Assembly (NCBI RefSeq): GCF_000786695.1
Contig: NZ_CP009962.1
Location: 4,588,001 to 4,652,000 of the forward strand
DNA: 64,000 nt
Direction: 5' to 3'
Origin: Collimonas arenae
GTDB lineage: Bacteria > Pseudomonadota > Gammaproteobacteria > Burkholderiales > Burkholderiaceae_D
The translations under genes and the position numbers were made by a program. The notes below the pieces were generated by a model. That model did not search any database, was not told the DNA's origin, and saw only the letters and a list, made by a program, of their open reading frames with translations. Of this stretch, positions 30,225 through 45,473 are shown piece by piece. Positions within the stretch are counted from its first letter, which is position 1, and every line of letters begins with the position of its first letter.

Positions 30225-33200
30225 CTACTGCGTCGTCAATACTCGCCATGAAACCCGTCGAGTGTTGCTGGTTGCAGACGGCTTGATAGGAGGCGTCGTG
30301 ATAATCGTACCGCCTAGATCGGTGCCCGTCGAGGTGCCATTCGCCGAACGAATCAGCACCCGGACAGTGCCGTCGGCCTGCTCGATCATTACAGGTCGCG
30401 TCACCAGACTTGCACCTAAATTGAAACCACTCACTCCGGAAGCGCCATCTACTGCAGCGCCGGTCAGGTAATTCAGCGCGTAAAGGAAGCTGCCCGAAAC
30501 ATTTGGATCGGTCGCTCCGCAAGCGCTGACAGTCGAAACTTGTGGCGTAATCGTCGTGAACACCAAAGTACCGAGAGCAAGCGATGGATCAGTACTGGCA
30601 CGCTCCCCCCCCGTCAGAAAATCAATGTACCACCCGGTATTGGTTGTCCAATCGACTGGATTGTTGCTACTTGTCCGCACCACTTGACCCGGAGTGCAAA
30701 GCGAGACCGGCGAGTTTGCCGGGCACGTTTTAGCAGTCAAGGTTTGCTGAACAAACTTGCTGGTGCTGGTTGGTACTCGCGGATTGGTATAAGTATTCGC
30801 GTCCGATTTATCGAGGACAGCATAGAACGACTCGATGCTAGTATCGGCGACGTCAGTGGTGCCCAAATAACGGCCGGTTCCTACGTAGACCACCGGATTG
30901 CCATTGACTGTCGCTTCCAGCGGTGCAGCGGTAATCGGTTGCGGATTGCCTGCCGCATCTTTAAAACTGACTAGCAACTGAGCATCGTAGCCGCTGGCGC
31001 CGATATTACCGTTGATGTCGAAGCGCCACAGATTACCCAATGTATCGCCGCCGTACGCTGCGATGGACGTATTGTCAGTCAGTGCTTGCACCGAATGGGC
31101 GCTGATCCGCGCCATCCCGCTGGGGGTCGCTGTACTACCGGCGCTCGTGACAATGTCCCGGATGGTAGCACCGGTATTAGCGTTCAACACGTAGAGGTGA
31201 CCGAGGCCATCTGCATTGTTATAACCGGAACTCAGCAATACCACCCACGTACCATCGCTAAGTTTGGTGATTTTCGGATTGCCATAGGAATAGCCCAAGT
31301 TGGTATTGGTAAACTCCCACAACAATTTTGGCGTCGTCGGATCCGTAACGTCCAATGCATAGTAGCCTTTTCCTCCGCGGTTCAGACCGCCTACCAGAAT
31401 ACTCTTCCACTGTGCGCTGGTACAGGTTGACGCCGGAGCATTCGGGCAGATATCGCCGGTTTCCGGCGAGTTATCGACGAAGAATTGATGCAATGTGGCG
31501 TAATTCTTGTCTGCCAAGTTGTACATGTTCGGCAAAACCATGCTCGGTATGTAGGCCCACAATTCTTTGCCGGACGAAGCGTCAAAGGCATGCACCATGC
31601 CGTCATTCGCGCCGACATAGACAGCTCCAACGCGCGATGTAATCGCGCTTGAGGTTTTGAATGCAGCGTAATTAGTATCAGCGTAACTGAACAGCGGCGT
31701 TTGTACATATCTGGCTTCTGAAGAAACAATGTCGCCCAGGACATGTGCCCGTGTGCGGAAGTATGTACCTTCATTGCTGCGGTCGCCACGCAGGAAGTTG
31801 ACCAGCGCCTCGCCGGACGCGCCGCCAGTCGCAATCGTGTTATTGCTTTGTGCGGCGCTGCTCAGGCAATTGCCACCAGAGGTGCAGAACTGCGTCAACC
31901 CCGTTGGCGCTGCTCCTGAAACATAGCTAATATGAGGCGCAGTGAAATTTGAATCCAGTCCGGCGGACTGCAGGGTAGCCCAGTCAAATGTTATGAGTCC
32001 GGTAGTTGAACCAATTGTCCCTTTGGTATAGATGGTTCGGCTGGTCGGCGCTGTCACGGCAACCGGCGTAGTGGCGGCACCATCGACATTAACCACCTTG
32101 GTATTCATCCCGTCGACACCAGTGGCAGCACCATTGAACGTAGTGCCTGAAGAGTAACCGTTGACGACCGTATAGCAGTTTGTTCCTTGGCGGAATACAT
32201 TGCCAATGATGTAGCTTGTCGATGCCCTCCATGGTGTGGTTGCGCAATCAAGCAGCGTCATCGCCGACCAGTTTTGGGCGCCCAAAGTACCTGTAGTACT
32301 CAGTTGCTGACGAATCAGCTCTCCATACCAATCGACAGACTTGTAGGAAGAACTAAATACGTAATTATCAGCAGCGCTCACGTTGGGATTACTGCTGGCA
32401 GCGGCAGCGGCGGTACCTGGCCGTGGCGTATTGATGATCGTTGCGAGAGCCGATGTAAGACCGTTGGCGAGCGCCGAAGGGTTAGCTGCACTGAAATACG
32501 TACCATGTCCATTAACCGCTGCATGCCATAGGTCATCGATATTAGTATTGGAATTGGACGCTGGAGTGGGCCAGTTACATACTCCGCTAGTCTGCCAAGA
32601 ACAGATACCCGCGCTTGTATTTGCAGTCGTTCCCTTATATACGTCATAAAAATCGCCGCTGGTGTCATTCCAATAATCCTTGCCGTCTGTAGGCGCATAA
32701 ATCATCTGACCTTGCGAGCCCAAGCCAAGCGTAAATGTCGTCATGTGCTGAGTGGTGGCAACATCACGACCATTTGACGGCACGTTGTCCGCACACAAGT
32801 CATTCGGGGTCGTTGACGGCGAGATGGTTGGACCGGTGCAAGTTCCAGTACCTTGAGTTGTATCGGAGCTACGCAAATCGGTGTTGTAGTAATAAGCTGC
32901 CACGTCAGCCAGAGTATTCGAGGTTCCACCTGAGTTCACGGTAGAGCACTGCATTGCGGTGCCTACCGTATAGTTGGGAGCTGTGGATTGCGCCAGGGCG
33001 GTGCAAGAGCTTGCGTTCGCAGGTGTACTCCAAGCCGTATACTGACAGTTACTCGTGCTTGAGGCCGTACATGAAGATGCATTTACCCATGTTCCGAGTA
33101 TTGGTGTTGGGCCGCTCTGACATTGATATGCGGTGCCCACTGTATAAGCAGGCCCGACAGACTGTGCCGTAGGCGTACACGAAGCTGTATTGTTATATGC

Positions 33201-35381
33201 GGTCCAAGCGGTATACCTACAATTACTAGCACTTGATGCTGTGCACGACGATGCAGTTTGCCATGTCCCGAGGACTACACCCGAAGTCTGGCACTGAACT
33301 GCCGTACCTACTGAATAAGAAGTGGGCCCGGTCGACGGTGCTACAGCCGTACACGAATTTGGGCTACTGTTGCTATAGGCAGACCAACCTGCATATTGAC
33401 AACTGATTGTGGTTGACGAAGTGCTGGACGCAGTGCAACTGGTAACAGCAACCCAACCAGAATCAAGAGTCTGACATTGCGTTTGATTTTTACCACTGGT
33501 TACCGGTATACATGACGTTGCGTTAGCCCAAGATGTCCATTTAGAACCTGAATTACTTGAAGTTCTCTTCTGTAATTGCTGTGTATCACTCTGTAACTGA
33601 TTAGTGCTGGTTTGCCATTGAGGACTGATCGTCTGCGACTGCAATGTGCTGGTACTAGTCTGCGGCTGAGGCGTAACCGTCTGCGACTGCAAATTACTGG
33701 TACTGCTTTGTATTTGGGCACTGCCCCCGTCGTAATAGGGACGAGGTAAACCTGCATCCTGATTGCCAACCGACGTCGAGCCATTCATTTTGTAGAATCC
33801 CGAATTTTCATTCCAGAAGCCGTCTGTAGAAAGAATGGTGTAGTTTTGCTGGCATGAATACTGCAGCGGATCAACGACAGTAGAACCGTTAAGTGTCTGT
33901 CCATTAAGCTTGCCGGCATAAAGCCGGCCGGCCTTTGACAAGGCTGCACGCAAAGGAGTCGAGTTGCCAGGTATTGCGCTGGTAAACGCGTTGTACCAGT
34001 TATATTTCTGCGCGCCTGTGAATTCAGCAAGATTAACAAAATCACCACCGGTATTATTGTTAATACTCATATACCCAACGCGAAAACGCGAGACACCATT
34101 CGCGATATCGGTTGCCTTGTCTATCGCGGCAAATGCGTTGCTCGCAGAGGTTTTCATCATCTGCATGCGCGATTTGTAATAGGTCCACCAGTTCGCGTAG
34201 TTGGTCATTTCCTCATTGCCTGTACAAAGTGTCCCAGCGCAATCTGTTCGAGTGACGGCCTTGCCTGTCTGTCCGGGAAAAGGAAAAACTGCAACGGTGC
34301 CAGCGGTAATGACAGCTAGCAAACTATATCCAGGTACTGGACTAGTGCTAAAGGCAGCAGGAGAAGAAAGAGTAATCGTACCGGTTTTGCTCAGCACCGG
34401 TGTGGCAACTGTGTTGATTCCCGCAGTGATTGTCACAACACTGCCTGAGGCGGTCGCTCCATAGCCAGCCACTCCGCAAATCCCTGAAATCGATCCGTTA
34501 CAAGCATTGATGCTTGCGGCGATAGCAGCTGCCATATTTGACGAAGAAGTAGATGCGGCAGTGACAGCACCGGATAAAATTTGTAGTCCATTTACCTTGA
34601 TGCTGCTCACAGTCGCGCCGGTCAAGATGCTGCTGACCGAAAAACTCGTCGTTCGCGGCGACGGTGCGCGAGCATAGGAGAAGTTTGAACTAAAAGCCGC
34701 TTGACAATTGGTCAATGCACTGCTGTCGCACCATCGCAAAACGGCGGGAAAATTGTAAGCCACTCCACTGACGGTGGTAGCGGCACTAGCTGTAATACAT
34801 TTTCTCAAGCTCGCCGAAGTGCAATATTCTCCGGCTACAGTAGTATAAAAATACTGTGGGGTAGACTGAAGGTCCGATGTTGACGACAAACTGCTCTGGA
34901 CGCCATATGCATCGTCTCCAACAGCCTTCCAATTTGGCTTGGTACCGGAATTTGCTCCAGTAGTGGAATCCGCTCCCGTCATGCTGGGAAAAGTCGTAGA
35001 GTTGACAGCACCAGTGCTATCGACGGCAACAGGTGGCTTGTAGACAACGGCCGGATTGTAATAAATACCGTTATAACCGGCATTCCTGAATAAATACTCC
35101 TGATCTGCCGAGCTTGCAGTTTGTCCAGCTGATGAACAATCTCCCCCGCTGCGTGTCGAGTATGTAGGAGAGCATGCCCAGTCTGGCATGAAGTCCCAGT
35201 TCATACTGCCCGAATCATCCAGCACCATAAATACGTTTGGCTTTACATCGGTGCTTGAAGGTGCTGAGTAAGTGTTCAACGGATCAGTTGAAATGTCGGT
35301 CTGCCCCGCGTGAGCAGATGCGCTGAATGCCAGAGTAATCAGCAAGCTGCTGAATGTTCTGAACGATCGGTTGTTGGTCAA
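30225..35381 (-). CDS. pilY1: PilY1-type type IV pilus tip adhesin, long form
   Basis: A 1718-residue exported protein acting at the pilus tip in adhesion, surface sensing and pilus biogenesis. The frame opens far upstream, but the TTG at 35381 has CAGGAG seven bases before it and starts a good signal peptide (NRSFRTFSSLLITLAFSASAHA). A von Willebrand-like domain follows with the MIDAS motif DDSGS at residues 55-59. Within it, about residues 554-608 hold three 16-residue T/S/Q repeats, and about 614-817 four cysteine-bearing repeats. A C-terminal beta-propeller (about 1195-1700) has VGANDGMVHAFD and a YVLNANTGAT blade. It is about 580 residues longer than the cluster B homologue. Confidence 0.9.
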   Translation of the reverse strand: MTNNRSFRTFSSLLITLAFSASAHAGQTDISTDPLNTYSAPSSTDVKPNVFMVLDDSGSMNWDFMPDWACSPTYSTRSGGDCSSAGQTASSADQEYLFRNAGYNGIYYNPAVVYKPPVAVDSTGAVNSTTFPSMTGADSTTGANSGTKPNWKAVGDDAYGVQSSLSSTSDLQSTPQYFYTTVAGEYCTSASLRKCITASAATTVSGVAYNFPAVLRWCDSSALTNCQAAFSSNFSYARAPSPRTTSFSVSSILTGATVSSIKVNGLQILSGAVTAASTSSSNMAAAIAASINACNGSISGICGVAGYGATASGSVVTITAGINTVATPVLSKTGTITLSSPAAFSTSPVPGYSLLAVITAGTVAVFPFPGQTGKAVTRTDCAGTLCTGNEEMTNYANWWTYYKSRMQMMKTSASNAFAAIDKATDIANGVSRFRVGYMSINNNTGGDFVNLAEFTGAQKYNWYNAFTSAIPGNSTPLRAALSKAGRLYAGKLNGQTLNGSTVVDPLQYSCQQNYTILSTDGFWNENSGFYKMNGSTSVGNQDAGLPRPYYDGGSAQIQSSTSNLQSQTVTPQPQTSTSTLQSQTISPQWQTSTNQLQSDTQQLQKRTSSNSGSKWTSWANATSCIPVTSGKNQTQCQTLDSGWVAVTSCTASSTSSTTISCQYAGWSAYSNSSPNSCTAVAPSTGPTSYSVGTAVQCQTSGVVLGTWQTASSCTASSASNCRYTAWTAYNNTASCTPTAQSVGPAYTVGTAYQCQSGPTPILGTWVNASSCTASSTSNCQYTAWSTPANASSCTALAQSTAPNYTVGTAMQCSTVNSGGTSNTLADVAAYYYNTDLRSSDTTQGTGTCTGPTISPSTTPNDLCADNVPSNGRDVATTQHMTTFTLGLGSQGQMIYAPTDGKDYWNDTSGDFYDVYKGTTANTSAGICSWQTSGVCNWPTPASNSNTNIDDLWHAAVNGHGTYFSAANPSALANGLTSALATIINTPRPGTAAAAASSNPNVSAADNYVFSSSYKSVDWYGELIRQQLSTTGTLGAQNWSAMTLLDCATTPWRASTSYIIGNVFRQGTNCYTVVNGYSSGTTFNGAATGVDGMNTKVVNVDGAATTPVAVTAPTSRTIYTKGTIGSTTGLITFDWATLQSAGLDSNFTAPHISYVSGAAPTGLTQFCTSGGNCLSSAAQSNNTIATGGASGEALVNFLRGDRSNEGTYFRTRAHVLGDIVSSEARYVQTPLFSYADTNYAAFKTSSAITSRVGAVYVGANDGMVHAFDASSGKELWAYIPSMVLPNMYNLADKNYATLHQFFVDNSPETGDICPNAPASTCTSAQWKSILVGGLNRGGKGYYALDVTDPTTPKLLWEFTNTNLGYSYGNPKITKLSDGTWVVLLSSGYNNADGLGHLYVLNANTGATIRDIVTSAGSTATPSGMARISAHSVQALTDNTSIAAYGGDTLGNLWRFDINGNIGASGYDAQLLVSFKDAAGNPQPITAAPLEATVNGNPVVYVGTGRYLGTTDVADTSIESFYAVLDKSDANTYTNPRVPTSTSKFVQQTLTAKTCPANSPVSLCTPGQVVRTSSNNPVDWTTNTGWYIDFLTGGERASTDPSLALGTLVFTTITPQVSTVSACGATDPNVSGSFLYALNYLTGAAVDGASGVSGFNLGASLVTRPVMIEQADGTVRVLIRSANGTSTGTDLGGTIITTPPIKPSATSNTRRVSWRVLTTQ
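32930..33540 (-). repeat. Cys-rich tandem repeats inside pilY1-A
   Basis: Four degenerate units of roughly 45-50 codons, each with an aromatic-rich element (TAW or AGW), SCT, a GP-x-YTVGTA element and a QC ending, then a stretch such as LGTWVNASSCTASS. Adjacent units are similar at DNA level, which points to recent internal duplication. Confidence 0.7.
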
Positions 35382-35457
35382 GGCATTCTCCTGAATATTG
35401 AAGCACATGTTGCTGCACACGCAATGTTGTTTTTTAATCAGTTCAACGGCGTTCCGT

Positions 35458-36081
35458 TTACATCGAAACGACTGCCTGCACATAGCTGACTGTATTTCTT
35501 GGGCCGCTAACCCGTACAGTGATCCGGTAATACACGACCGAAGGTGCGTTAAGCGGAATCTGCCCGGCTTCTTCGGCATTTCCTGTGGCGGCCTGAACTA
35601 CGGGGGACGCGACGCATGAGGCTCCACCTGTTTTGGAACCGGCGTTGTTGCACAAGCGGTCGATGACATAGCTGACGTTATTCCCGGCCGAATCGAGAGC
35701 TACAGCTTGACGCGCTCTCGTGGTCGCCAGAGAACTAGACCAAAAGTTATCCCATGACTGGCCGGCCCCGGGACTATTCGTCGCAGCGCTGCCATTGGCA
35801 GCGTAGCCATTTGTAGAATCGTCGGCATCGAGCGTACTGCCGGTATTGTTAGTCTGCAGCCAAGCTGTCGCGGCCTCGACTCCTGTATCGGCCGAATGGG
35901 TGGCAGCTTCCTGAAACGCCAGATTGCCAGCGATGATATTGGCGCTATCGACTGACCGCATCAATGCAAGCGCAGCCAAAGTCATCGCTATCAATACAAT
36001 CAGAGCGACGAACAACACCACGCCAGATTGCTTGGTGCGGAGTTTTAACGGATGCGACGGTATGTGGTTTGCGGTTAACAT
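35458..36081 (-). CDS. pilX: Minor pilin PilX (cluster A)
   Basis: A 207-residue minor pilin. The ATG at 36081 overlaps the pilW stop; the longer frame starts at a TTG and is less likely. The leader ends KQSG, followed by the hydrophobic VVLFVALIVLIAMTLAALALMR. Glu5 of ordinary pilins is missing, as usual for PilX/GspK-type subunits, which sit at the tip. The globular part includes a paired-cysteine region (RLCNNAG, ASCVA). It lies between pilW and pilY1 in the conserved order. Confidence 0.85.
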   Translation of the reverse strand: MLTANHIPSHPLKLRTKQSGVVLFVALIVLIAMTLAALALMRSVDSANIIAGNLAFQEAATHSADTGVEAATAWLQTNNTGSTLDADDSTNGYAANGSAATNSPGAGQSWDNFWSSSLATTRARQAVALDSAGNNVSYVIDRLCNNAGSKTGGASCVASPVVQAATGNAEEAGQIPLNAPSVVYYRITVRVSGPRNTVSYVQAVVSM

Positions 36082-37175
36082 CCTTGCGTCACTCCCATCC
36101 AACCGACATTGCGTATCGGTATTACAGTTTCAAACACCTTATAGCGATAGTGTTTCCAGGGTTCGTCTGCCGCCGTATTTGGCCCTAGGGTGCCGGTGGC
36201 AGCGATAATTGAAGCGGTAGCGTTTTCCGACCAGGTGGGAGCATTGACAGGGATAGGAGAATTCAATGCGGTCGCCGTAACAATTCCTTTTTCAAATTGC
36301 GCACTGCGTGCCACCAGTACCAGCCCCACAGCGGAAAGCCTGGCCCAGCCGCAAGCAGTGGTCGGCGTACTCTGATCGTGCCCATTGGCATCTGGAATAC
36401 CGTCCATTGGCGCACTCGTATCGCGCCAATACACGGCTCGCATGCTGACAACGTTATTTGCAATCGGCGCCCATATCGACGGATCGCTGGTATTTGCGGA
36501 CAAGCCACAATCGTTGGCCTGGTAGTCGCATACCGTCAGATTGCCGCCGCGTATCGCATAGGCCAGCATACTTGGCGTAGGGCCGAGGTTATAAAGCGTG
36601 CTACCGGCAGCGCCCGTTCCAACAGTAACGGTGGTCGCTGCAGTCGCCGTAATTCTGTCAAGAACCAAATTGGCGGAGCATACGGCAGGTGCCGCTATGA
36701 CACGATCGCCTACAGCGAACGCACTAGGCATCTGCACCGTGTCTACGGTGCTGGCCTGCGCATTGATGGGATTACCTTGAGGCTGACCATTGGTGTTGCC
36801 ATAAACGACTAGCAGTGTGTCAGTATTTGCATCGCCGGCAGGAATGATGCTCGTGGCAGGGTTAACAGTCACTGGAGCCAATGGAATGGCAGTAGCTATA
36901 CTTGTGCCAGAAGGCAGCTTCCACGTCAGATTGCAGTTAAACAAACCAACCGCACTGATTCCGTAGCCAGCTTGACCAACATCACTCTGCAACTGATTTA
37001 AAGCAATCGCCGCAGTACTTTGCGCATCGCCACCGCCAGTAGTGGTGCGCTTGCGCTGCTCCGAGAGAGCGAACACCTGCAACATGATAATGACTGCGAT
37101 CATGCCGATCGCTAGGCTGACCATGACCTCAACCAAACCGAAGCCAGCAGTTGGGCGATTGAATAATTTTGGCAT
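36075..37175 (-). CDS. pilW: Minor pilin PilW (cluster A)
   Basis: A 366-residue minor pilin with the prepilin site TAG-FGLVEVMVSLAIGM (Glu5 present) and a long C-terminal globular domain. AAGGAG lies 15 bases before the ATG chosen here; the TTG codons at 37184 and 37181 are better spaced and may be the true starts. The body contains GNTNGQPQGNP and a CDYQANDCG pair of cysteines. It lies between pilV and pilX and overlaps pilX by 7 bases. Confidence 0.85.
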   Translation of the reverse strand: MPKLFNRPTAGFGLVEVMVSLAIGMIAVIIMLQVFALSEQRKRTTTGGGDAQSTAAIALNQLQSDVGQAGYGISAVGLFNCNLTWKLPSGTSIATAIPLAPVTVNPATSIIPAGDANTDTLLVVYGNTNGQPQGNPINAQASTVDTVQMPSAFAVGDRVIAAPAVCSANLVLDRITATAATTVTVGTGAAGSTLYNLGPTPSMLAYAIRGGNLTVCDYQANDCGLSANTSDPSIWAPIANNVVSMRAVYWRDTSAPMDGIPDANGHDQSTPTTACGWARLSAVGLVLVARSAQFEKGIVTATALNSPIPVNAPTWSENATASIIAATGTLGPNTAADEPWKHYRYKVFETVIPIRNVGWMGVTQGC

Positions 37176-37194
37176 CGGCAACAATTTGCTCTCC

Positions 37195-37620
37195 TTACCT
37201 GATTTGCGCAACGGTGACGTACTGGTGCTTAGTAGTATTAGCCACCTCGCTTGGCGCCAGCCATTTGACGGTGACCGTCACGATGTTTTGGCTATCGACG
37301 TTGACCGTTGCAGAGCTCTGCGGCAAGGCTGCGGACACGTTGGCCAGCCACGCGATATAGCCTGCTCCATTAGGACTGTTGAAGTTGGATTGCATAGTCG
37401 CCGTAGTGTGGTCGCTTACCCACATTGTTCCGATCAAAGTATTTGATAACACGGCAGCTTGCGAACGGTATGAAGCGTCGCTGACCTGTTTGACGCTCAC
37501 ACTTTGCAGGCCGACGATGGCGAGGATACCCATCGAGAAAATAAAAATCGCGATGAGCCCTTCTATCAGCATCATCCCTGCTTGCTTGTCCAAAGGTTGA
37601 GAGTTTGTAGGCATGGTCAT
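37195..37620 (-). CDS. pilV: Minor pilin PilV (cluster A)
   Basis: A 141-residue minor pilin. The ATG at 37620 lies 1 base after the fimT stop. The prepilin site is KQAG-MMLIEGLIAIFIFSMG, with Glu5 present. The mature part is short, with VSVKQVSDASYRSQAAVLSN and a C-terminal beta segment (TVNVDSQNIVTVTVKWL). It belongs to the fimT-pilV-pilW-pilX core that primes pilus assembly. Confidence 0.82.
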   Translation of the reverse strand: MTMPTNSQPLDKQAGMMLIEGLIAIFIFSMGILAIVGLQSVSVKQVSDASYRSQAAVLSNTLIGTMWVSDHTTATMQSNFNSPNGAGYIAWLANVSAALPQSSATVNVDSQNIVTVTVKWLAPSEVANTTKHQYVTVAQIR

Positions 37621-37621
37621 G

Positions 37622-38230
37622 TCAGCATGCTTGCGGGTCGGTGGGTTTGGAAACGGTAAGCGCCGGATCGCACATGCGAATCTGTCCGGCGGGCGTGACG
37701 ATGACCCGCAGGCAACGCATCTTGCCGCCGGCGACCGCGCAAGTCCCACCGCCAGAATTGCTGATGTCGTAGACCGCGTTATCCGCAGTCGCCAGAGTGC
37801 TTGCAATCACGCGGCCCAGGCCATTGAATGTAAGGGTGTTCGTAAAAACCGTCGTACCGGCCGCTGCGCCGGTGGAAGCTACTACCTCTGAAGTCGCCAC
37901 CTGTGCCTGGGTAGAGCCTTCGGCCGCGACGCGCTTCATAATGACGGCAGGACAACTGGCAGAAGCCGCGGTACATCCTACTGCCCAAGAAGAATCCGTC
38001 GAAGAATCCACTCCGGAAGAAAAATTGACCTGAGTATTCCGCCGAAGCGCTTCTACGCGAGCAAGGCCGAGTCCATTTTGCATTGCTTCAGCGGCATTGC
38101 GAATGTTGCTATTCGCAATGAATGCGCTGAAATTGGGCAAGGCAATGGCAAGCAGTATGGCGAAAATCACTATGCCGATCATGAGCTCGATCAAAGTGAC
38201 ACCTTGCTGTTTGGTGGGTAGTGTTAGCAC
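37622..38230 (-). CDS. fimT: Minor pilin FimT/FimU (GspH-like, cluster A)
   Basis: A 202-residue GspH-type minor pilin. The GTG at 38230, four bases after a GGGGGG run, overlaps the pilE stop and gives a ten-residue leader ending KQQG, then [24 protein letters not shown]. Position 1 is Val rather than Phe. The globular domain has two cysteine pairs ([15 protein letters not shown]...RC) and ends PQAC. It is translationally coupled to the pilE-like gene before it. Confidence 0.85.
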
Positions 38231-38661
38231 ACTCCCCCCTTTTTGGTCACCCAGCAAGTAGCGTTGGTGGTCCAGTTTGCAGGCACAGCTGTCGTTGCTT
38301 TGGCATTAGTCTGATCGACGGTATAAGTAAAACCGGTCATCGAGTTCGTGCCAGTCGCGGTCAGCAAGAAGGTCGTAGCATTACTGACACAGCTGAAATT
38401 GAAATACTTGCTGGTAGTGCTATCGACAGCGGCGCACGGGGGAGCACCTGCGTAAGTGTGGTTGTCCTGAAAAAACTGCTCCATCTGCACGCGCAGCGTC
38501 GATAAATTGGAAGTGGCATCGGGAATTTTCCCGCGGGTGACGTAATCTGCGTAATTGGGCAAAGCAACCGCTGCCAATATGCCGATAATGGCAACTGTGA
38601 CTAATAATTCAATCAAGGTAAAACCGGCCGAACGTCGGTTCGACTGTTTGCTGAGTCCCAT
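38224..38661 (-). CDS. pilE: Type IV pilin, PilE-like (cluster A)
   Basis: A 145-residue pilin with leader [13 protein letters not shown], then [24 protein letters not shown], the classical methylation and Glu5 site. The C-terminal domain has the D-region type cysteines (PPCAAV, FSCVS, ATCWV and a final GGVC). GGGGGAA precedes the ATG. It is the first gene of cluster A, whereas in cluster B the pilE-type gene is last. Confidence 0.88.
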
Positions 38662-38908
38662 ATTTCCCCCTGTTTCCTGCGTTGATCTTGTTCGAAGCAT
38701 CTCAAATCTTAACGGTCGAAATTTCCGCCATGCAAGTGTTGCAGTATTATAGGTTCGCCGTTTCCTCAAGGTAACCATTTCCCCCCTCCGTCCGTCGCAA
38801 TCTCAGTACCGCTTATCCAGTTTTGTTTTTAATTTAACAACCGGCATTTAGATACTTCATACTCCTTTGACAACAATCGGCACATATTGAGTGCAGCAGG
38901 ATAGGTGA

Positions 38909-39100
38909 ATGGCAGATGCAACAAACCGTGTTTTCGGGTATCGCGTCGTGTGCTCCCGCGGTACGCGACGAACGGTCGCTACTTTTACAACGTTTGGTTA
39001 TTACAATTCCGACTTGGCTCAGTCGATTTTTGACACGATACTTTTCAAGGCCGCACGCTGTGTGGCCAAATATTTATCGCAAATGAAGGTGGTTACGTGA
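38909..39100 (+). CDS. Small uncharacterised ORF between pilus clusters
   Basis: A 63-codon frame with AGGATAGGTGA before its ATG. The product is basic and not membrane-spanning, and no family is recognised. It ends in an overlap (GTGA) with a second short frame. Both could be chance frames in a decayed region. Confidence 0.25.
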   Translation: MADATNRVFGYRVVCSRGTRRTVATFTTFGYYNSDLAQSIFDTILFKAARCVAKYLSQMKVVT

Positions 39101-39237
39101 GCGGTTATGCGGTCGACGAGTTTGGCTTGCTATTCATGTTCTGCCTAGCGACGTTAACGTTATCCGCACAACTGAGAAGCGCGATTTTCGCACTTAAACA
39201 TGCTGGACAATCGCCGAGGATCAAAACGCGACAATGA
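39097..39237 (+). CDS. Second small ORF, possible membrane peptide
   Basis: A 46-codon frame starting at GTG inside the stop of the preceding ORF. It has a hydrophobic stretch (FGLLFMFCLATLTLSA) and a basic tail. No family is recognised; coding status is doubtful. Confidence 0.2.
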   Translation: MSGYAVDEFGLLFMFCLATLTLSAQLRSAIFALKHAGQSPRIKTRQ

Positions 39238-39535
39238 GTTGGTACATATTACGACCATCACCAGGGTCGCAGATTTTGTTTTGAATACATAGGAACAAAC
39301 GCAGATCCCTGGTTCACCGAGCAGTGACACATATCTGACGAATTACATCTCGAAAGCGCAGACAATATTGCCTGGAGCAGGACGTAACCACAGCTCCAAG
39401 CTGTGCCGGACTTGTACGCTGAATTTGGCTGCCATGCTTGGGAATGTCAGGGACAGGCCGGGGAAAAGGTCGCCTCTATTCATTCGGCAAATTTTCTTAG
39501 GCAAACCCCTGATCTCTTATCTTGCTGAAGATTAG

Positions 39536-39964
39536 CTATCGTGACGCCCAGCAATCCGCAGCAGTTGCAGCCGGCGCCTTGGCTTTATCGGTACTCCTCT
39601 TACCGGTGCTGTCCAATAAGAAAGTCCCGCATTTATCGTTTGTCACCGGTACCGCTTGCAACGTAAATGAACTGGCGTTCGAATCGCTGACAGAAAACGT
39701 ATATTTTGAGCCGATATCACCCCATGTCGGCAAACTGAGCGGCTTGCCGCCTGACAGGTAGCTGTTGTTAATCGTATATTGCTGCTGCATCCAGTTAGCG
39801 TACTTCAGCAGCGTCGCCGTTGCCTGGGCGCGGTTGCCGCGCTGGACGTACTGCGTGTAATTCGGTACTGCAACCGCCGCCAGGATGGCGACTACCGCTA
39901 CCGTGATCATTACCTCAATCAGCGTAAAACCGCGCTGCCAGGAGAACATATTCCGATCCCTCAT
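39536..39964 (-). CDS. pilE: Type IV pilin PilE (cluster B)
   Basis: A 142-residue minor pilin of the PilE type. The leader is MRDRNMFSWQRG, then FTLIEVMITVAVVAILAAVAVPNY. The globular part has a single disulphide-type pair (NDKCGTF and AADCWASR), the usual C-terminal loop. AAAGGG precedes the ATG; a second Met at codon 6 is possible. It is the last gene of cluster B, 18 bases after pilY1, matching the fimU-pilV-pilW-pilX-pilY1-pilE order in Pseudomonas. Confidence 0.88.
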   Translation of the reverse strand: MRDRNMFSWQRGFTLIEVMITVAVVAILAAVAVPNYTQYVQRGNRAQATATLLKYANWMQQQYTINNSYLSGGKPLSLPTWGDIGSKYTFSVSDSNASSFTLQAVPVTNDKCGTFLLDSTGKRSTDKAKAPAATAADCWASR

Positions 39965-39982
39965 ATATACCCTTTCAATCGT

Positions 39983-42900
39983 TTAATTTGGCTTGATCGA
40001 CAACTGCCGCCAGCGCCGCACCGCCACTCCCGTCGTCAGGTATTCCTGACAATGCGGCTTGCCGTCAGAACCAATCGTATTGATGCAGCCGGGTTGGGTG
40101 ACGTCGGGATTGGGTACGGGCAAAGCAGTACCCACGGTACCGGGCACCTTGGCCGAACTCAAATTGACGTTGGGTGGCGTGTCGGCGACGATCAGATGGA
40201 ATTTGTCGGTATAAGCCCCGCTCAGGAAATTCGCCCCCAAGATTTGGGAGGAGCCGCCCCCGGCGCACGGGTCTGCAGTATTCGGCGTCAGCGAGGTCGT
40301 CAGTACGATAACGTCCTTGATGATCCGCAAAGCGCCGACGGTGCGCTCGCCGCTGGCAGACGGATAGTCGATATACCAGCCGCGCTTGCTGCTCCAGGCA
40401 ACGGTATTGGTCGACAAGGTACGGCCGAGCAGTTCGCCGGTTTTCGAAGATACATCTGTCAGCGTTTGCACCTGTAGCTGGCTGCGGCCGGTGACCGCGT
40501 TTGCACCAGGCTTGTCCCATATGCCATACAGACTCTGGACATTGGTATCGGCCAGGTCTTCAGTTTCAAAGTATTTCCCAGTGCCGAACAGCACCATGAA
40601 ACCTCCCAGGGGATGTGGTGCGATGACCGGCGCCTGCACTATCGGCTGCACCTTCGGCACGCTGCTCTGATCTTTGGCTGTAAACAAGGTGCTGCGATTC
40701 CATTGCGCATCGCTGGCATTGCTTAGGTCGAACTTCCAAAGATTGCCTTGCAGATCGCCAGCATAGGCGGCAATCAGCTGGCGCGACGCATTGAACAGCA
40801 ATGCCGGTGCGGACAAGCCGTTCTGCGCTGTGGCGCTACCGACGCCGGTGTCGATTTTCTTGATCAGGGCGCCGGTCTGGATATCGACCAGATACAGCAC
40901 CGCATGACCGTTGGCGCTGTTGTAACCGTTGCCGAAAATGGCTGCCCATTTATTGTTGGCCAATAACACGACGGCCGGCGCACCCAGCACATTACCCATG
41001 TCGGCATCGCTTGCAGTAGCGTTGTACTCCCACAAGACACTGCTTTCCGCCAATCCGTCGGTCTTGGTAACATCGATTGAAAACACGCTCTGCGCACCGG
41101 CGCCGGTGCTTCCTAATAGAATATTCTTCCACGCGCCGCCGACATAAGCGTCGCCTTCCGCCAACGGACCATCGACAAAATAATGATGGCCGTAGTTAAG
41201 ATCGCTCAGGGTCTTCAGATTAGGGTAGACGCTATTCGGTATGAAGGCGAATTTCTCGGTTCCGCTGGTATCAAATCCATGCAGCATGCCGTCGTTGGCG
41301 CCGACGTAGAGCATGCCGCTGCGCGCCGCCTTGGTTGTCAGGAAAGCGTTATAAGTACTGCCTCCAGGGATGCTTGCCGGTAGCGCCGTGTAACCGAAAT
41401 CGTTGCTCTTGATATAAAGCGGCGTCGAATTGACGATGTCGCCGAGTTTGTTCTGGCGATAACGGTATACGCCCGCACCGCTGCCGTCCGGCGCTTTCTC
41501 CATCGCCGAACTGCCTTTGAGATAGTCCAGCACATTAGCCGATACCAGGGCCGCTTGCTGACTGTCGGTGCCGACGGTCAGATTTTCCCAAACAAACTTC
41601 TTGGCACTCTTGGTCGTTGGATTCCAGGTCACGATGTTACGTTTTTCGTAATCCGGCAACAGCGTTGCGGCATCCCATTTCGGCGTAGGATCGAGCTTTC
41701 CCTTGGCGTCGACCGGATGTGCTTTCAAATGCCCGGTCCAGCTGCCGGAGTCGAAGCTCGGCACATAAGCGACGGCATCTTTGCCTCCCGGCACCGCCCC
41801 ACCAGGTACCGAAGCATTGCCGCCGGAACCTGAGGCCCTGCCGATTTCGGCCAGGATGCTGTTCAGGCCGTCTTGCAGATTCTTGGGATTCTTTGCGCTG
41901 AAATAGCTGCCGTGGCCATTGACTGCCGCGTGCCATAAGTCATCGATCGCGGTATCAGTATTCTCCTTTGGTATACCCCAGCTTCGTTTTCCTTGCTTAA
42001 TTTCTGCATAGTGGCCACTGGTTGCCGTCTTATAATCCGCTTGATAAATCAAATTTCCATTGGCGCCCAAACCAATGGTGTGCGTTGTCATGTGCTGCCA
42101 GGTTGCCGGATCGGTCGAGGTCGCCGTAATTTTTCCGGCAGTGCCGCCATTACTGCCGCGCACCCCGATGTCGGTGATCCAGTACTTCATCGCCGCATCC
42201 GCCAGTGAATTGGAAATTCCAGTGCTTCCCTCATGGAACGGGGCCGGAAACGGATCTCCTGCTTTCAACGCTCCGCCGGAGACAGGATCATACGAAACCG
42301 GTGCGGGCAAAGCCGGCACCAGCTTGTCCTGATTGCCGATTGAGCTTGGCACAGTGCCATTCCAATATCCGTCGGTGGCAAGAATCGTATAATTTGCCTG
42401 GCATTTCAATTGAATAGGGTCTGGGGTTGAAGATGGTGCACCATTCATTGGCTTGCCCATGTAGTATTGCCCGACCTGATTCAAAGCATCGATCAGCGGC
42501 GTAGCGCCGTTAGGCTTGATCGCATACAGCTTGGCATACCATGCGGATTTTTGCGCTGCATTGAAAGTCGATATCGGAACGAAATTGCTTGCATTGTCGT
42601 TGATCGTCCCAAAGCCCACCCGGAAGCGGTCGTTGATACCGGAAAATACGGTTCCCAGCGAAGTTTTCGTCAACAGAATGCGCGTCCGGTAATACGAAAA
42701 CCAATTGGCGAAATTCTGAATTTCCTCGGCATAGGTACAGGTGGCGCCTGCACAGTCGGTACGACTGGCAACGCGCGGATAGACATTTCCGCTGACAATG
42801 TCTATCCGTGTGTAATATTTATCGGTATCCTCCCCTATAGCGCCAGTCGGTGTCCCGCGCCCTATCCAGTTATAGTAGAACGCATACTGCGCTACTGAGT

Positions 42901-43396
42901 TTGCCCCTGATGCGCCACAGTTTATGCTAGAAAAATTCGTGTTATAAAACGGTAGAGTGAATGACTTGTTGTAATAGCATTTGGCGCCGATGTTCGTCAA
43001 CTTTGTACCCGGATTCAGATACGGATCGATGATGGTTGCCGTAGTGCTGGCGTTACCCATCGATGTGCCGTTAGCCTTCACTCCAGGCGTATAAGTCGTT
43101 GCCGGGTTGTAGTAAATCTGGTTCCAGGCGCTGGAATAATAAGAGAGCTGGGTTTTCCCGGCATTGAATTCCACCGTTGCATCCGTACCCGTCACAGTCC
43201 CCCACACCATACTTCCCGAATTGTCCAGCATATACATAATGTTCGGCGGCGGCGGCACCGGCAGGAACAGTGGCGACTGTGCTATTTCTGCAAGGGCCAC
43301 GCCCGATACCGCGGCCATGCCCAGGCAAACGCAATGCGCCGCCAGCTTGAGCAAGCGACCATACGAAAAAACGCGCGCTACACTTATTCTTAACAT
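39983..43396 (-). CDS. pilY1: PilY1-type type IV pilus tip adhesin (cluster B)
   Basis: A 1137-residue exported adhesin. The signal peptide covers about residues 1-36 (ending VSGVALA). The von Willebrand-like region has DNSGS (residues 58-62) as its MIDAS and the CQANYTILATDGYWN block. The C-terminal seven-bladed propeller includes YVGANDGMLHGFD, GGAWKNILLGSTGAG and VLFGTGKYFETEDL. AGGAAAA precedes the ATG. Compared with cluster A PilY1 it has no T/S/Q or Cys-rich repeat block between SSIGNQD and NSLADAAMKYW. It ends in a gene junction of 18 bases with pilE. Confidence 0.93.
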   Translation of the reverse strand: MLRISVARVFSYGRLLKLAAHCVCLGMAAVSGVALAEIAQSPLFLPVPPPPNIMYMLDNSGSMVWGTVTGTDATVEFNAGKTQLSYYSSAWNQIYYNPATTYTPGVKANGTSMGNASTTATIIDPYLNPGTKLTNIGAKCYYNKSFTLPFYNTNFSSINCGASGANSVAQYAFYYNWIGRGTPTGAIGEDTDKYYTRIDIVSGNVYPRVASRTDCAGATCTYAEEIQNFANWFSYYRTRILLTKTSLGTVFSGINDRFRVGFGTINDNASNFVPISTFNAAQKSAWYAKLYAIKPNGATPLIDALNQVGQYYMGKPMNGAPSSTPDPIQLKCQANYTILATDGYWNGTVPSSIGNQDKLVPALPAPVSYDPVSGGALKAGDPFPAPFHEGSTGISNSLADAAMKYWITDIGVRGSNGGTAGKITATSTDPATWQHMTTHTIGLGANGNLIYQADYKTATSGHYAEIKQGKRSWGIPKENTDTAIDDLWHAAVNGHGSYFSAKNPKNLQDGLNSILAEIGRASGSGGNASVPGGAVPGGKDAVAYVPSFDSGSWTGHLKAHPVDAKGKLDPTPKWDAATLLPDYEKRNIVTWNPTTKSAKKFVWENLTVGTDSQQAALVSANVLDYLKGSSAMEKAPDGSGAGVYRYRQNKLGDIVNSTPLYIKSNDFGYTALPASIPGGSTYNAFLTTKAARSGMLYVGANDGMLHGFDTSGTEKFAFIPNSVYPNLKTLSDLNYGHHYFVDGPLAEGDAYVGGAWKNILLGSTGAGAQSVFSIDVTKTDGLAESSVLWEYNATASDADMGNVLGAPAVVLLANNKWAAIFGNGYNSANGHAVLYLVDIQTGALIKKIDTGVGSATAQNGLSAPALLFNASRQLIAAYAGDLQGNLWKFDLSNASDAQWNRSTLFTAKDQSSVPKVQPIVQAPVIAPHPLGGFMVLFGTGKYFETEDLADTNVQSLYGIWDKPGANAVTGRSQLQVQTLTDVSSKTGELLGRTLSTNTVAWSSKRGWYIDYPSASGERTVGALRIIKDVIVLTTSLTPNTADPCAGGGSSQILGANFLSGAYTDKFHLIVADTPPNVNLSSAKVPGTVGTALPVPNPDVTQPGCINTIGSDGKPHCQEYLTTGVAVRRWRQLSIKPN

Positions 43397-43411
43397 GGAA
43401 TTTTCCTACTC

Positions 43412-43924
43412 TCAGAATTTCAAATAACTTTGCAACATGACTTTTGCGTTAGCGCTTGCGAAGGTCGTATCGACCCCGAAAGCGGTAACCCGATAGACTT
43501 TGGCGCTTACATCTCGCGTTACCTGAGTGCCCCCCATCGCGATCGTTGTGGTCACGTCTTCGATAACGCATTGCGCAGCACCGCTTGCCGCTGGCAGACC
43601 CAAGGTCGCCGTGGTCGGCGCCGTTGCAGGCCAGGTGTCCCAGACGTTGGCGCCGGCAACCGGTGTGGTGATCATGCGGTCCAGCGGCTGGGCCGCCGCA
43701 CCGGCTTTGGGAATGATGGAATTTTTTTGCGCGCCTGTTTCGCAATAACGCAAGCCGCTTTCCGCAGCCTGGAACGCCAACTGCTGATTACGTGAATTGG
43801 CCGCCATTTTTTCATCCAGCGTCACATTGCGCATGGCGACGGCCCCAATCAGCATCATCAGCACCAGGAAGATCAGCACCATCGGCAGTGCGATGCCGGT
43901 TTGTGAAAATTTTGTATTTGCCAT
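43412..43924 (-). CDS. pilX: Minor pilin PilX (cluster B)
   Basis: A 170-residue minor pilin. After the short leader MANTKFSQTG comes the hydrophobic segment IALPMVLIFLVLMMLIGAVAMR, without Glu5, as in PilX/GspK-like subunits. NVTLDEKMAANSRNQQLAFQAAESGL is the conserved second part of the N-terminal helix. The globular domain has one cysteine pair (LRYCE, AQCVIE). It lies between pilW and pilY1. Confidence 0.88.
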   Translation of the reverse strand: MANTKFSQTGIALPMVLIFLVLMMLIGAVAMRNVTLDEKMAANSRNQQLAFQAAESGLRYCETGAQKNSIIPKAGAAAQPLDRMITTPVAGANVWDTWPATAPTTATLGLPAASGAAQCVIEDVTTTIAMGGTQVTRDVSAKVYRVTAFGVDTTFASANAKVMLQSYLKF

Positions 43925-43953
43925 AAATGTGTTCGATAAATGATCGGCTTCGG

Positions 43954-44874
43954 TCAGTTGAGCAAACTGGCCGTGGCGTTATTGCGCAAAGTGAATACGC
44001 GCGTCATGGTGGTATGCAGAAAACGATCGCTTGCGACGGTTGGCTTGGTCGCGTTGCATTTGTAGTAGCTTTGCCCGGTGGCTCCGCTCACCACACGATT
44101 CGTGCCATGCATCTCCAGGCACACAGTCACCGTGACCACACGATCCCAGCCAACCTTGTTGTTGCCGTTGATGGCGTCGGCGGTGCCAGCGACAGTCGCG
44201 TCGGTCGTCGATTGCACCGGTGCATACTGGTTGCCGGTGTCGAGGTCGTACGTAATCAGCAAATTGTCGACGTTGCTTAGTACCGGCTGTGGGGCCCTGG
44301 TCCCTGCATTCCCTCTGCAATACAAGGTGCTGGTCTTAGTGTCGACATAAAAATTGTTGATGACGATACCGCCCTGCGTGCTGCTGGCGTTGACGGCCTG
44401 GGTCCCGCTGCAATCCGTCCCTGCGCCGCTAATGTTGGTTGCATCGTAATAGGGTTCGGTGGTGTAACTGACGGTGAACGCGGAAGGCCCGGAGATGTCG
44501 GAAGGCGCCGGAACCGGTGCGGCGGCACAAACCGGGCGTACGGCCACCGGCGTGACGAAGCCGTAATTACATCCGGTCAGTCCTTTCAGATCGGGATCCG
44601 ACGCTGGCGGAAAGTCCGTGGTGGTTCCGCTTTGCATGTTGCCGAAACCCGCCTGCATCAGATTACGGCCAATCAACGCTAGCGCATAACGGCCATCTTC
44701 CTGTATGCGCGCATTGTCGTCGTTCAGACGCGAGCTGGAACGGCTGTTGAAGTAGAGACTGCTCAGGAACAATAATAAAAGCAGGCCTATGACCAGCGAA
44801 ACCATCAGTTCGACCAGTGTAAACCCGTGCATGCCGGTGCGGCGGGCGGCTGTCGCCGAGTGTGGAGTCATCAT
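43954..44874 (-). CDS. pilW: Minor pilin PilW (cluster B)
   Basis: A 306-residue minor pilin. The ATG at 44874 overlaps the pilV stop, and the long upstream frame to 45156 is the wrong frame of pilV. The prepilin site is GMHG-FTLVELMVSLVIGLLLLLFLSSLYFNSRSS, with Glu5. NARIQEDGRYALALIGRNLMQAGF is the typical PilW continuation. Several cysteines lie in the globular part (GCNYG, RPVCAA, DCSGTQ, YCRG, TVCLE, YKCNA). Confidence 0.9.
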   Translation of the reverse strand: MMTPHSATAARRTGMHGFTLVELMVSLVIGLLLLLFLSSLYFNSRSSSRLNDDNARIQEDGRYALALIGRNLMQAGFGNMQSGTTTDFPPASDPDLKGLTGCNYGFVTPVAVRPVCAAAPVPAPSDISGPSAFTVSYTTEPYYDATNISGAGTDCSGTQAVNASSTQGGIVINNFYVDTKTSTLYCRGNAGTRAPQPVLSNVDNLLITYDLDTGNQYAPVQSTTDATVAGTADAINGNNKVGWDRVVTVTVCLEMHGTNRVVSGATGQSYYKCNATKPTVASDRFLHTTMTRVFTLRNNATASLLN

Positions 44875-45473
44875 GGCATCACCGTGGTCTGAAAGCAGCG
44901 CATTTCCTTCTGTTCGACGCCTGAAGGAAATACCGAAGCGTCGCAATTGGCGTCGGACGCATTGGCCAACAACTTGTCGGGTTCGCTGTAATACACCGTG
45001 ACAGTCATGCCCTGCTTCGGGTCGTAGGCCGATACGTTGCCCCAGCCCCCGGCCAGCGCCCGGTTGAGGGTGACACGCCACTCGTAGATATCCCGGTTCG
45101 CAATTTCTTGTGCATTCGCGCAAGGTGGTGGATCGGCCTGGGCAGAACTGGCGCATGCCGGTACGGTCGATGGCGGCGCAGCGGAATACTGGTCATTCTT
45201 CAACGAATAAGTCACGGCGTTGCTCGCCCCACTGGCGGCCGTCTTGGTAACGGGTGAGGCGTTGGCGCGTATCCGATCCGCCATATCCGCACCCAGCTGG
45301 CTGGCCAGTGAGCGGAAATGCGCCACTTTCTGATATTTCAATGCAGCCATCTGCAAACCCGCGAGACCGAGCAGCGCAAAGGCAGATATGGTGATGGCGA
45401 TCAGTACTTCGATCATGCCAACGCCACGTTGCCGCTGTGTGGCGAGTGGCGAGCTATTCTTGAGAAAGACCAT
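44871..45473 (-). CDS. pilV: Minor pilin PilV (cluster B)
   Basis: A 200-residue minor pilin. The ATG at 45473 follows GGGAAAT. The prepilin site is QRG-VGMIEVLIAITISAFALLGLAGLQ, with Glu at position 5. The segment RSLASQLGADMADRIRAN is the PilV type. Cysteines are at PACASS, PPCANA, NCDAS and RCFQ. The gene is translationally coupled to pilW (ATGA). Confidence 0.9.
   Translation of the reverse strand: MVFLKNSSPLATQRQRGVGMIEVLIAITISAFALLGLAGLQMAALKYQKVAHFRSLASQLGADMADRIRANASPVTKTAASGASNAVTYSLKNDQYSAAPPSTVPACASSAQADPPPCANAQEIANRDIYEWRVTLNRALAGGWGNVSAYDPKQGMTVTVYYSEPDKLLANASDANCDASVFPSGVEQKEMRCFQTTVMP

Follow-up and report, generated by a model that had tools for sequence, protein, structure and literature searches.

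PilY1-A, a type IV pilus tip protein of the PilY1 type encoded in the window (the whole 64,000-nucleotide stretch analysed), carries a repetitive, cysteine-bearing insert in its predicted von Willebrand-type (vWA) domain, beside the predicted MIDAS. Judging from sequence comparisons, we put at roughly 0.55 the probability that this insert is an exchangeable, length-variable binding arm. Such an arm would exit the vWA domain past the MIDAS aspartate, pass through a glutamine-rich stretch and bear a chain of small modules. In each module the two cysteines would form a single disulphide, and in most an aromatic residue stands a few positions ahead of the first cysteine. Beside the metal site, the arm would make multivalent contacts and set reach; it would evolve as repeats are gained or lost and as parts of the array are replaced, and its variation may alter the reach or the target of the pili. 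The proposal bears on how a single pilus machine gains differing targets.

Results

PilY1-A and its predicted metal-site motifs

The PilY1-A reading frame (30225..35579, minus strand, as are all window features below) is intact over 1784 codons. Its likely start is the TTG at 35381 (residue 67), where the database copy, P0003 of 1718 aa, also begins, and its signal peptide probably ends near SASAHA. In its C-terminal half, the PilY1 propeller PF05567 was matched in residues 1281-1615 (Pfam; E=2.6e-37, 129 bits against a cut-off of 28.1), and the solved structure closest to PilY1-A among PDB sequences is 3hx6, a PilY1 (E=1.4e-58). The NCBIfam equivalog model T4_PilC_Neiss fell under its cut-off (77 v 350 bits).

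No vWA profile in Pfam matched PilY1-A (P0001), and no vWA chain was named among its 23 PDB matches. In the N-terminal half, the MIDAS motifs DxSxS, T and D occur in the expected order (121-125, 541, 586), with roles that we take from general knowledge of vWA domains. The first motif, DDSGS (residues 121-125; 35205..35219), has its D and both S residues invariant in alignment A1, which has 56 rows. In the same alignment, T, P, L and R are invariant in the likely second motif, STPLRA (residues 540-545, with T541; 33945..33962), as are D and G in the MIDAS strand ILSTDGFW (residues 582-589; 33813..33836), which contains the metal aspartate D586. The vWA region also holds a second, apparently optional domain (residues 305-425; window about 34305-34667), which shorter relatives such as P0061 appear to lack. 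The calcium motif of the PilY1 propeller is treated in PMC3123361.

Anatomy of the insert

The insert lies between D586, the last MIDAS aspartate, and the next conserved vWA segment. An earlier note, made from the sequence alone, had assigned it to the MIDAS domain and to 32930-33725; it is indeed next to the MIDAS aspartate in sequence, and its two parts, an LQ stretch and a series of modules, were found at 33713-32934. From STDGFW to LADVA, PilY1-A has 304 residues, compared with 56 in the neighbouring PilY1-B and about 38-50 in related loci free of an insert, so that the insert is real and amounts to a net 250-260 residues or so (about 265 in the earlier note). The matching site in PilY1-B (42212..42379) spans its 56 residues from ATDGYW to NSLADA without an array. 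That protein had been described as running directly from SSIGNQD to NSLADAA; in fact, 38 residues intervene.

A conserved lead-in (residues 590-622; 33714..33812) precedes the repeats. Within it, SVGNQD (residue 603) matches SIGNQD of PilY1-B, after which the two sequences part ways, and the LQ repeats start at residue 623. In a group of array sequences with 38 cysteine columns, the first 36 columns, corresponding to the lead-in, are 0.879 conserved, compared with about 0.65 in the modules. The LQ stretch (residues 623-672; 33564..33713) is rich in Q, T and S and consists of 16-residue repeats with a last step of 7. Of the three 16-residue T/S/Q repeats noted previously, two are clear 48-nt copies (73% identical DNA), while the DNA repeat search left the third unreported.

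Residues 681-882 hold 14 cysteines in seven W..C..C modules, in place of the four units of 45-50 residues originally proposed. Module 1 (residues 681-705; 33465..33539) is a divergent first type. Thereafter short modules (2, residues 706-733, 33381..33464; 4, residues 770-791, 33207..33272; 6, residues 828-849, 33033..33098) alternate with long ones (3, residues 734-769, 33273..33380; 5, residues 792-827, 33099..33206; 7, residues 850-882, 32934..33032), so that a short and a long module together repeat every 58 residues or so (174 nt). The two cysteines are spaced by 7 or 11 residues in modules 2, 4 and 6 and by 18 or 19 in modules 3, 5 and 7, and each module has a tryptophan 5 to 10 residues upstream of its first cysteine. 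The array is followed by the conserved segment NTLADVAAYYY (residues 888-898; 32886..32918), a putative helix.

The alternation is reflected in alignment scores, where the six within-type module pairs are the top six of 21 (41 to 98; others at most 40). Percent identities are less clean: modules 4 and 6 share 82% (18 of 22 residues) and modules 3, 5 and 7 share 52-55%, but modules 2 and 4 share 45% and modules 4 and 7 share 58%. The half-versus-half local self-score is 176 for the modules (shuffle maximum 91) and 54 for the LQ part (shuffle maximum 45), with 0 of 1000 shuffles reaching the observed value in either case. The similarity of units at the DNA level, claimed in the earlier note, proved modest (76% for modules 4 and 6), and Tandem Repeats Finder reported no array at the PilY1-A insert even down to score 30; we therefore call the array degenerate in its own genome.

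Distribution among relatives

Residues 596-900 used as a query gave 269 proteins at E up to 1e-3 among 8000 candidates scored, and precomputed Pfam annotation placed a PilY1 propeller in 118 of 120 among the matches listed (the best 120 of the 269). A genome scan yielded 59 related loci. By our own reading of the locus sequences, 34 carry the LQ stretch with the W/C array (including L064, whose end was not found), 19 have no insert, 4 have another insert and 2 (L063, L081) offer no readable segment. Repeats common to all PilY1 proteins would have contradicted the earlier note; PilY1-B and the 19 loci lack the array, and in the 19 loci the corresponding stretch has no cysteine. The insertion site is the same among related loci, and the arrays there range from 3 to 24 modules, which bears out the suggestion that the insert is variable.

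The array is carried by Noviherbaspirillum massiliense, two Herminiimonas, several Ramlibacter, many Accumulibacter and Methylovorus sp. MM2, among others. At E up to 1e-6, the array was found in at least 8 of 195 genomes of the family, at least 5 of 399 of the order and at least 2 of 398 of the phylum, the own genome being counted each time; these are lower bounds because 1 to 7 candidate frames per genome (family) or 1 to 3 (order, phylum) were scored. At the same threshold, the array profile matched in 0 of the 11 other same-genus genomes listed. All fetched array matches that were readable fall in PilY1-like frames (L091 has no pattern match, and L100 and L103 have no bounded segment). The largest array seen is that of Methylovorus sp. 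MM2 (L076 8528-11626), with 1026 residues, 48 cysteines and a TTYPLQ-type stretch in front.

The PilY1-A insert gave no Pfam match and no PDB sequence match. TSP_1 was absent from its Pfam scan at E up to 1 and from the 6 families that appeared at E up to 5 across 13 members; the PilY1 insert site is currently without any Pfam assignment. Silent donor cassettes were considered and set aside: with 7 of 12 candidate frames scored, the 4 places that the array profile matched in the window's genome all belong to the PilY1-A insert. Standalone module proteins fared similarly: a module-only search among proteins of 0.55 to 1.75 times 207 residues gave a single match in 795 candidates, P0123, which contains TTDGYW, an LQ part and modules and reads as a PilY1 fragment.

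A loose module pattern also occurs outside the usual site, at 37 places in 33 of 110 proteins; among the matches listed, 24 of 26 are an N-terminal DWAC..C stretch and were rejected as modules. One real-looking W..C..C module lies elsewhere in the N-terminal part of P0064 (residue 323) and of L043 (frame position 343), and the unit may thus move between loops.

Probable cysteine pairing

An even number of cysteines was found in 114 of 115 homologue segments, among which the window's own protein is counted twice (P0001, P0003); the 115 were parsed from 122 proteins, with P0002, P0008, P0017, P0022, P0053, P0058 and P0100 dropped. The sole odd count is that of P0059, where the stretch reads out of frame, in a frameshift-like manner, beside P0123. 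The number was likewise even in 38 of 38 locus segments with two or more cysteines; these include L047 and L080, which carry a different insert, and L064, L067 and L068, whose bounds are wrong or doubtful.

In P0090, P0113 and P0114, one long module lacks both cysteines while the surrounding sequence is kept, leaving a link of 43-45 residues, and this joint loss supports disulphides within modules. No equally clear loss of a between-module pair was seen in 139 distinct segments (P0059, L047, L067, L068 and L080 left out), among which other odd cysteine gaps are also present (P0108, L040, L066, L073, L075). The between-module link measures 12-15 residues in 1095 of 1274 cases, and the within-module gap is mainly near 7, 11, 14 and 18. 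Cysteine and tryptophan columns of the array are well kept, with 38 of 38 cysteine columns retained in at least 80% of 18 sequences. Taken together, parity and joint pair loss in three proteins suggest that the PilY1-A array is probably disulphide-stabilised, as the earlier note had supposed, with each module closed by its own pair. Hypervariable loops between the paired cysteines were also considered; variability there is no higher than between modules (0.647 v 0.652), so simple variable loops do not fit.

Variation in length and content

Among 110 proteins, 22 of 97 pairs with a propeller identity of 0.85 or higher differ in module number, as do 52 of 70 pairs at 0.80-0.85. In 82 of 97 pairs, both adjacent flanks of 150 residues are better conserved than the insert. 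The pairs are non-independent, and some are copies of one protein. In P0004, the nearest relative found (propeller identity 0.894), there are 9 modules, compared with 7 in PilY1-A. At propeller identity 0.90-0.95, module number differs in 5 of 46 pairs only, and 19 modules is a count shared by many Accumulibacter proteins. On a tree that includes 34 rows with the array, module number changes at least 20 times; support is poor for half of the inner branches. Because many insert-free loci failed the propeller pattern, this tree has 4 array-free rows only and is of little use for judging how the array as a whole was gained or lost.

Two pairs illustrate how the insert changes. P0009 and P0015 have 150-residue flanks that are 0.987 and 0.986 identical and inserts that are 0.579 identical: 55-60 of 60 residues are shared in bins outside 541-971, compared with 38-56% of the positions aligned in the 601-858 bins, with intermediate bins at both edges. 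In P0042 and P0056, with flanks 0.967 (N) and 1.000 (C) identical, the inserts are identical except for one 16-residue and one 70-residue stretch absent in frame. These closest variable pairs come from metagenome assemblies, in which repeats may be collapsed or wrongly joined; P0015 is backed by 19 member sequences and the MAG contig L030 (insert 0.991 identical), P0009 by 4 member sequences, P0042 by 13 and P0056 by 1. The opposite pattern also occurs: between L032 and L043, identity is higher in the insert (0.875) than in the N-flank (0.738).

This mode of change bears on whether the insert might be a spacer or spring only, in which the LQ stretch and disulphide modules would govern how far away the tip head sits and how much it yields, and would bind nothing, the disulphides limiting unfolding under retraction. 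A Q/T/S-rich stretch with 7- and 16-residue steps would suit such a device, as would a module number that varies while the module pattern is kept, and PMC9210963 discusses force-responsive disulphides located in the vWA domain of P. aeruginosa PilY1. However, the divergence of P0009 and P0015 beside nearly identical flanks exceeds what a spacer needs. Moreover, the arm would leave and re-enter the vWA domain at one place, so it would lie in line with the load only if its far end made contact with the surface. We regard a pure spacer or spring as unlikely.

Selection on the insert

Of ten pairs tried for dN/dS, two were saturated in at least one part. In the eight with usable dS throughout, all from Accumulibacter, dN/dS was 0.23-0.41 in the insert, 0.11-0.31 in the C-flank and 0.13-0.35 in the N-flank, so that these pairs show no sign of average positive selection on the insert. 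Insert dS exceeds C-flank dS in 7 of the 8. The combination fits faster-changing repeats, partly through recombination or misaligned units, under purifying constraint.

These values also weigh on the view that the array is a largely neutral expansion of repeat DNA, kept in frame within a tolerant surface loop and of little function. Tandem DNA arrays do exist in relatives, as in L030 (48 bp x 3.9 and 207 bp x 4.2), and other relatives have no insert at all, both of which are in keeping with such an expansion. In contrast, cysteine parity, the joint loss of pairs, the full set of kept cysteine columns and a dN/dS far under 1 speak for a folded product under constraint, which makes neutral expansion improbable.

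Other inserts at the same site

The site accepts different content in L046, L047, L060 and L080 and in the same-genus genomes G002 and G014. In addition to the LQ stretch with W/C modules, the kinds seen are Thr-rich stretches, a domain similar to another part of PilY1-A and another cysteine-bearing repeat. The stretch in L060 resembles PilY1-A residues 353-408, which lie elsewhere in that protein, within the apparently optional domain at 305-425 (49% over 61 residues), and the PilY1 proteins of G002 and G014 (L113 608-4840, L114 570-4808) have a long Thr-rich, repeat-like stretch at the insert site. A third same-genus genome, G013, has two PilY1 genes close together, as in the window; the first has about 56 residues at the site and no array, and the second is 81% identical to PilY1-B. 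In a betaproteobacterial MAG (L080 8162-10237), the same site holds a different cysteine-bearing repeat with NQAGAC-type units.

Differing inserts at one site, a hypervariable stretch flanked by conserved sequence and a position just past the MIDAS aspartate would also suit a shield or decoy, that is, an arm covering the MIDAS face and varying because phages, predators or competitors recognise pilus tips. We hold this to be quite improbable, given that dN/dS is below 1 and that the cysteine and tryptophan columns are well kept.

Returning to a binding arm, a wider and more tentative generalization, to which we would give somewhat less than even odds, is that in betaproteobacterial PilY1 the stretch after the MIDAS aspartate serves as a docking site for interchangeable repeat cassettes of several kinds. 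The W/C kind would then diversify tip adhesion, in specificity and reach, as repeats are added or lost and as parts of the sequence are replaced while the flanks stay nearly identical, with the disulphide-closed mini-module as the unit of change.

Discussion

We infer the disulphides, fold, tip exposure, binding role and ligand of the array from the patterns described above. An arm that exits and re-enters the vWA domain just after the metal aspartate should lie exposed at or close to the ligand face of the tip head. A stalk, disulphide-closed modules and regularly placed aromatics would suit an arm that makes multivalent contacts and resists proteases. Carbohydrate binders often have aligned aromatics, and for this reason our guess for the target of the arm is a polysaccharide. 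Binding of a host or a fungus by the PilY1-A insert, raised in the earlier note, is likewise a guess.

Arms embedded in the vWA domain of pilus-tip adhesins are already known. ComC of Acinetobacter baumannii, a PilY1 orthologue, has a lineage-specific vWA insertion, termed the finger, and ComC variants differ in this insertion (PMC10374093). In the complementation experiments described there, finger-deleted ComC gave no significant rise in adhesion and did not restore twitching, and transformation was an order of magnitude lower. The finger and the PilY1-A array are alike in being insertions inside the vWA region of a PilY1-type tip adhesin that are present in some lineages only. They differ in build: the finger is described as about 90 residues (166-256) forming a predicted antiparallel beta protrusion with a Tyr-rich motif, and the words cysteine, disulfide, tandem and repeat are absent from the main text of PMC10374093, whereas the PilY1 array has up to 24 cysteine-paired modules and a Q-rich stretch. 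The PilY1-A insert is rich in Q/T/S and W/C, and LQ parts across the family contain 1% Tyr, unlike the Tyr-rich ComC finger.

Among Gram-positive bacteria, RrgA and GBS104 bear arms in a MIDAS-containing vWA domain at the pilus tip, which are the most variable part and a proposed ligand cradle; the account in PMC7893114 is of hairpins, helices and loops, with no cysteine-module array described in the portions that concern these arms. Long cysteine-rich PilY1 clades of Myxococcota, with raised cysteine number, predicted disulphides, a vWA domain and a divergent N-terminal part, resemble PilY1-A as far as their description in PMC13190605 goes; the words 'insert' and 'repeat' are absent from its main text.

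A thrombospondin or sushi-like identity of the modules has no Pfam or PDB sequence support. The thrombospondin type 1 repeat is a small unit with a W..W...C pattern and six cysteines per about 60 residues. The W..C pattern of the modules recalls it as a lead only, and the PilY1-A array has four cysteines per double module of about 58 residues, compared with those six, so we set this candidate aside.

A search of the open-licence full-text literature, a body outside which most subscription papers fall, turned up no description of the LQ stretch with its W/C array. The earlier note's view of an undescribed insert type agrees with this for the array; vWA insertions as such have a precedent in the ComC finger. 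Our best reading by analogy is that the array resembles the finger in role and is new in type.

If the arm is the changing part of the tip, it would provide a defined, removable segment for testing, and natural relatives would allow module number to be compared with reach and valency. The graded natural lengths, from 3 to 24 units, would also offer a handle on the role of disulphides in pilus surface sensing.

Genomic setting

Upstream of PilY1-A lie pilin-type genes (35458..38778), namely PilX-like, PilW, one unmatched frame, GspH type and ComP_DUS type; the PilW, GspH-type and ComP_DUS-type matches are above cut-off, PilX_N is below, and one frame has no Pfam match. Horizontal transfer was considered from GC content, for which the modest dip at 32-36 kb (0.50-0.51) is insufficient, since the value at 38-40 kb is just as low (0.496). 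Elsewhere in the genome (G000:C1:5591189-5592646) there is a third PilY1-like frame, shorter at 624 codons, with the propeller half alone matched. Within the window, two pilin/PilY1 gene sets stand close together on the minus strand (30225-45156), the set with PilY1-B being without the array. Pilin genes at 38224-38778 and 39536-39964 match ComP_DUS, a minor pilin and DNA uptake sequence receptor, above cut-off.
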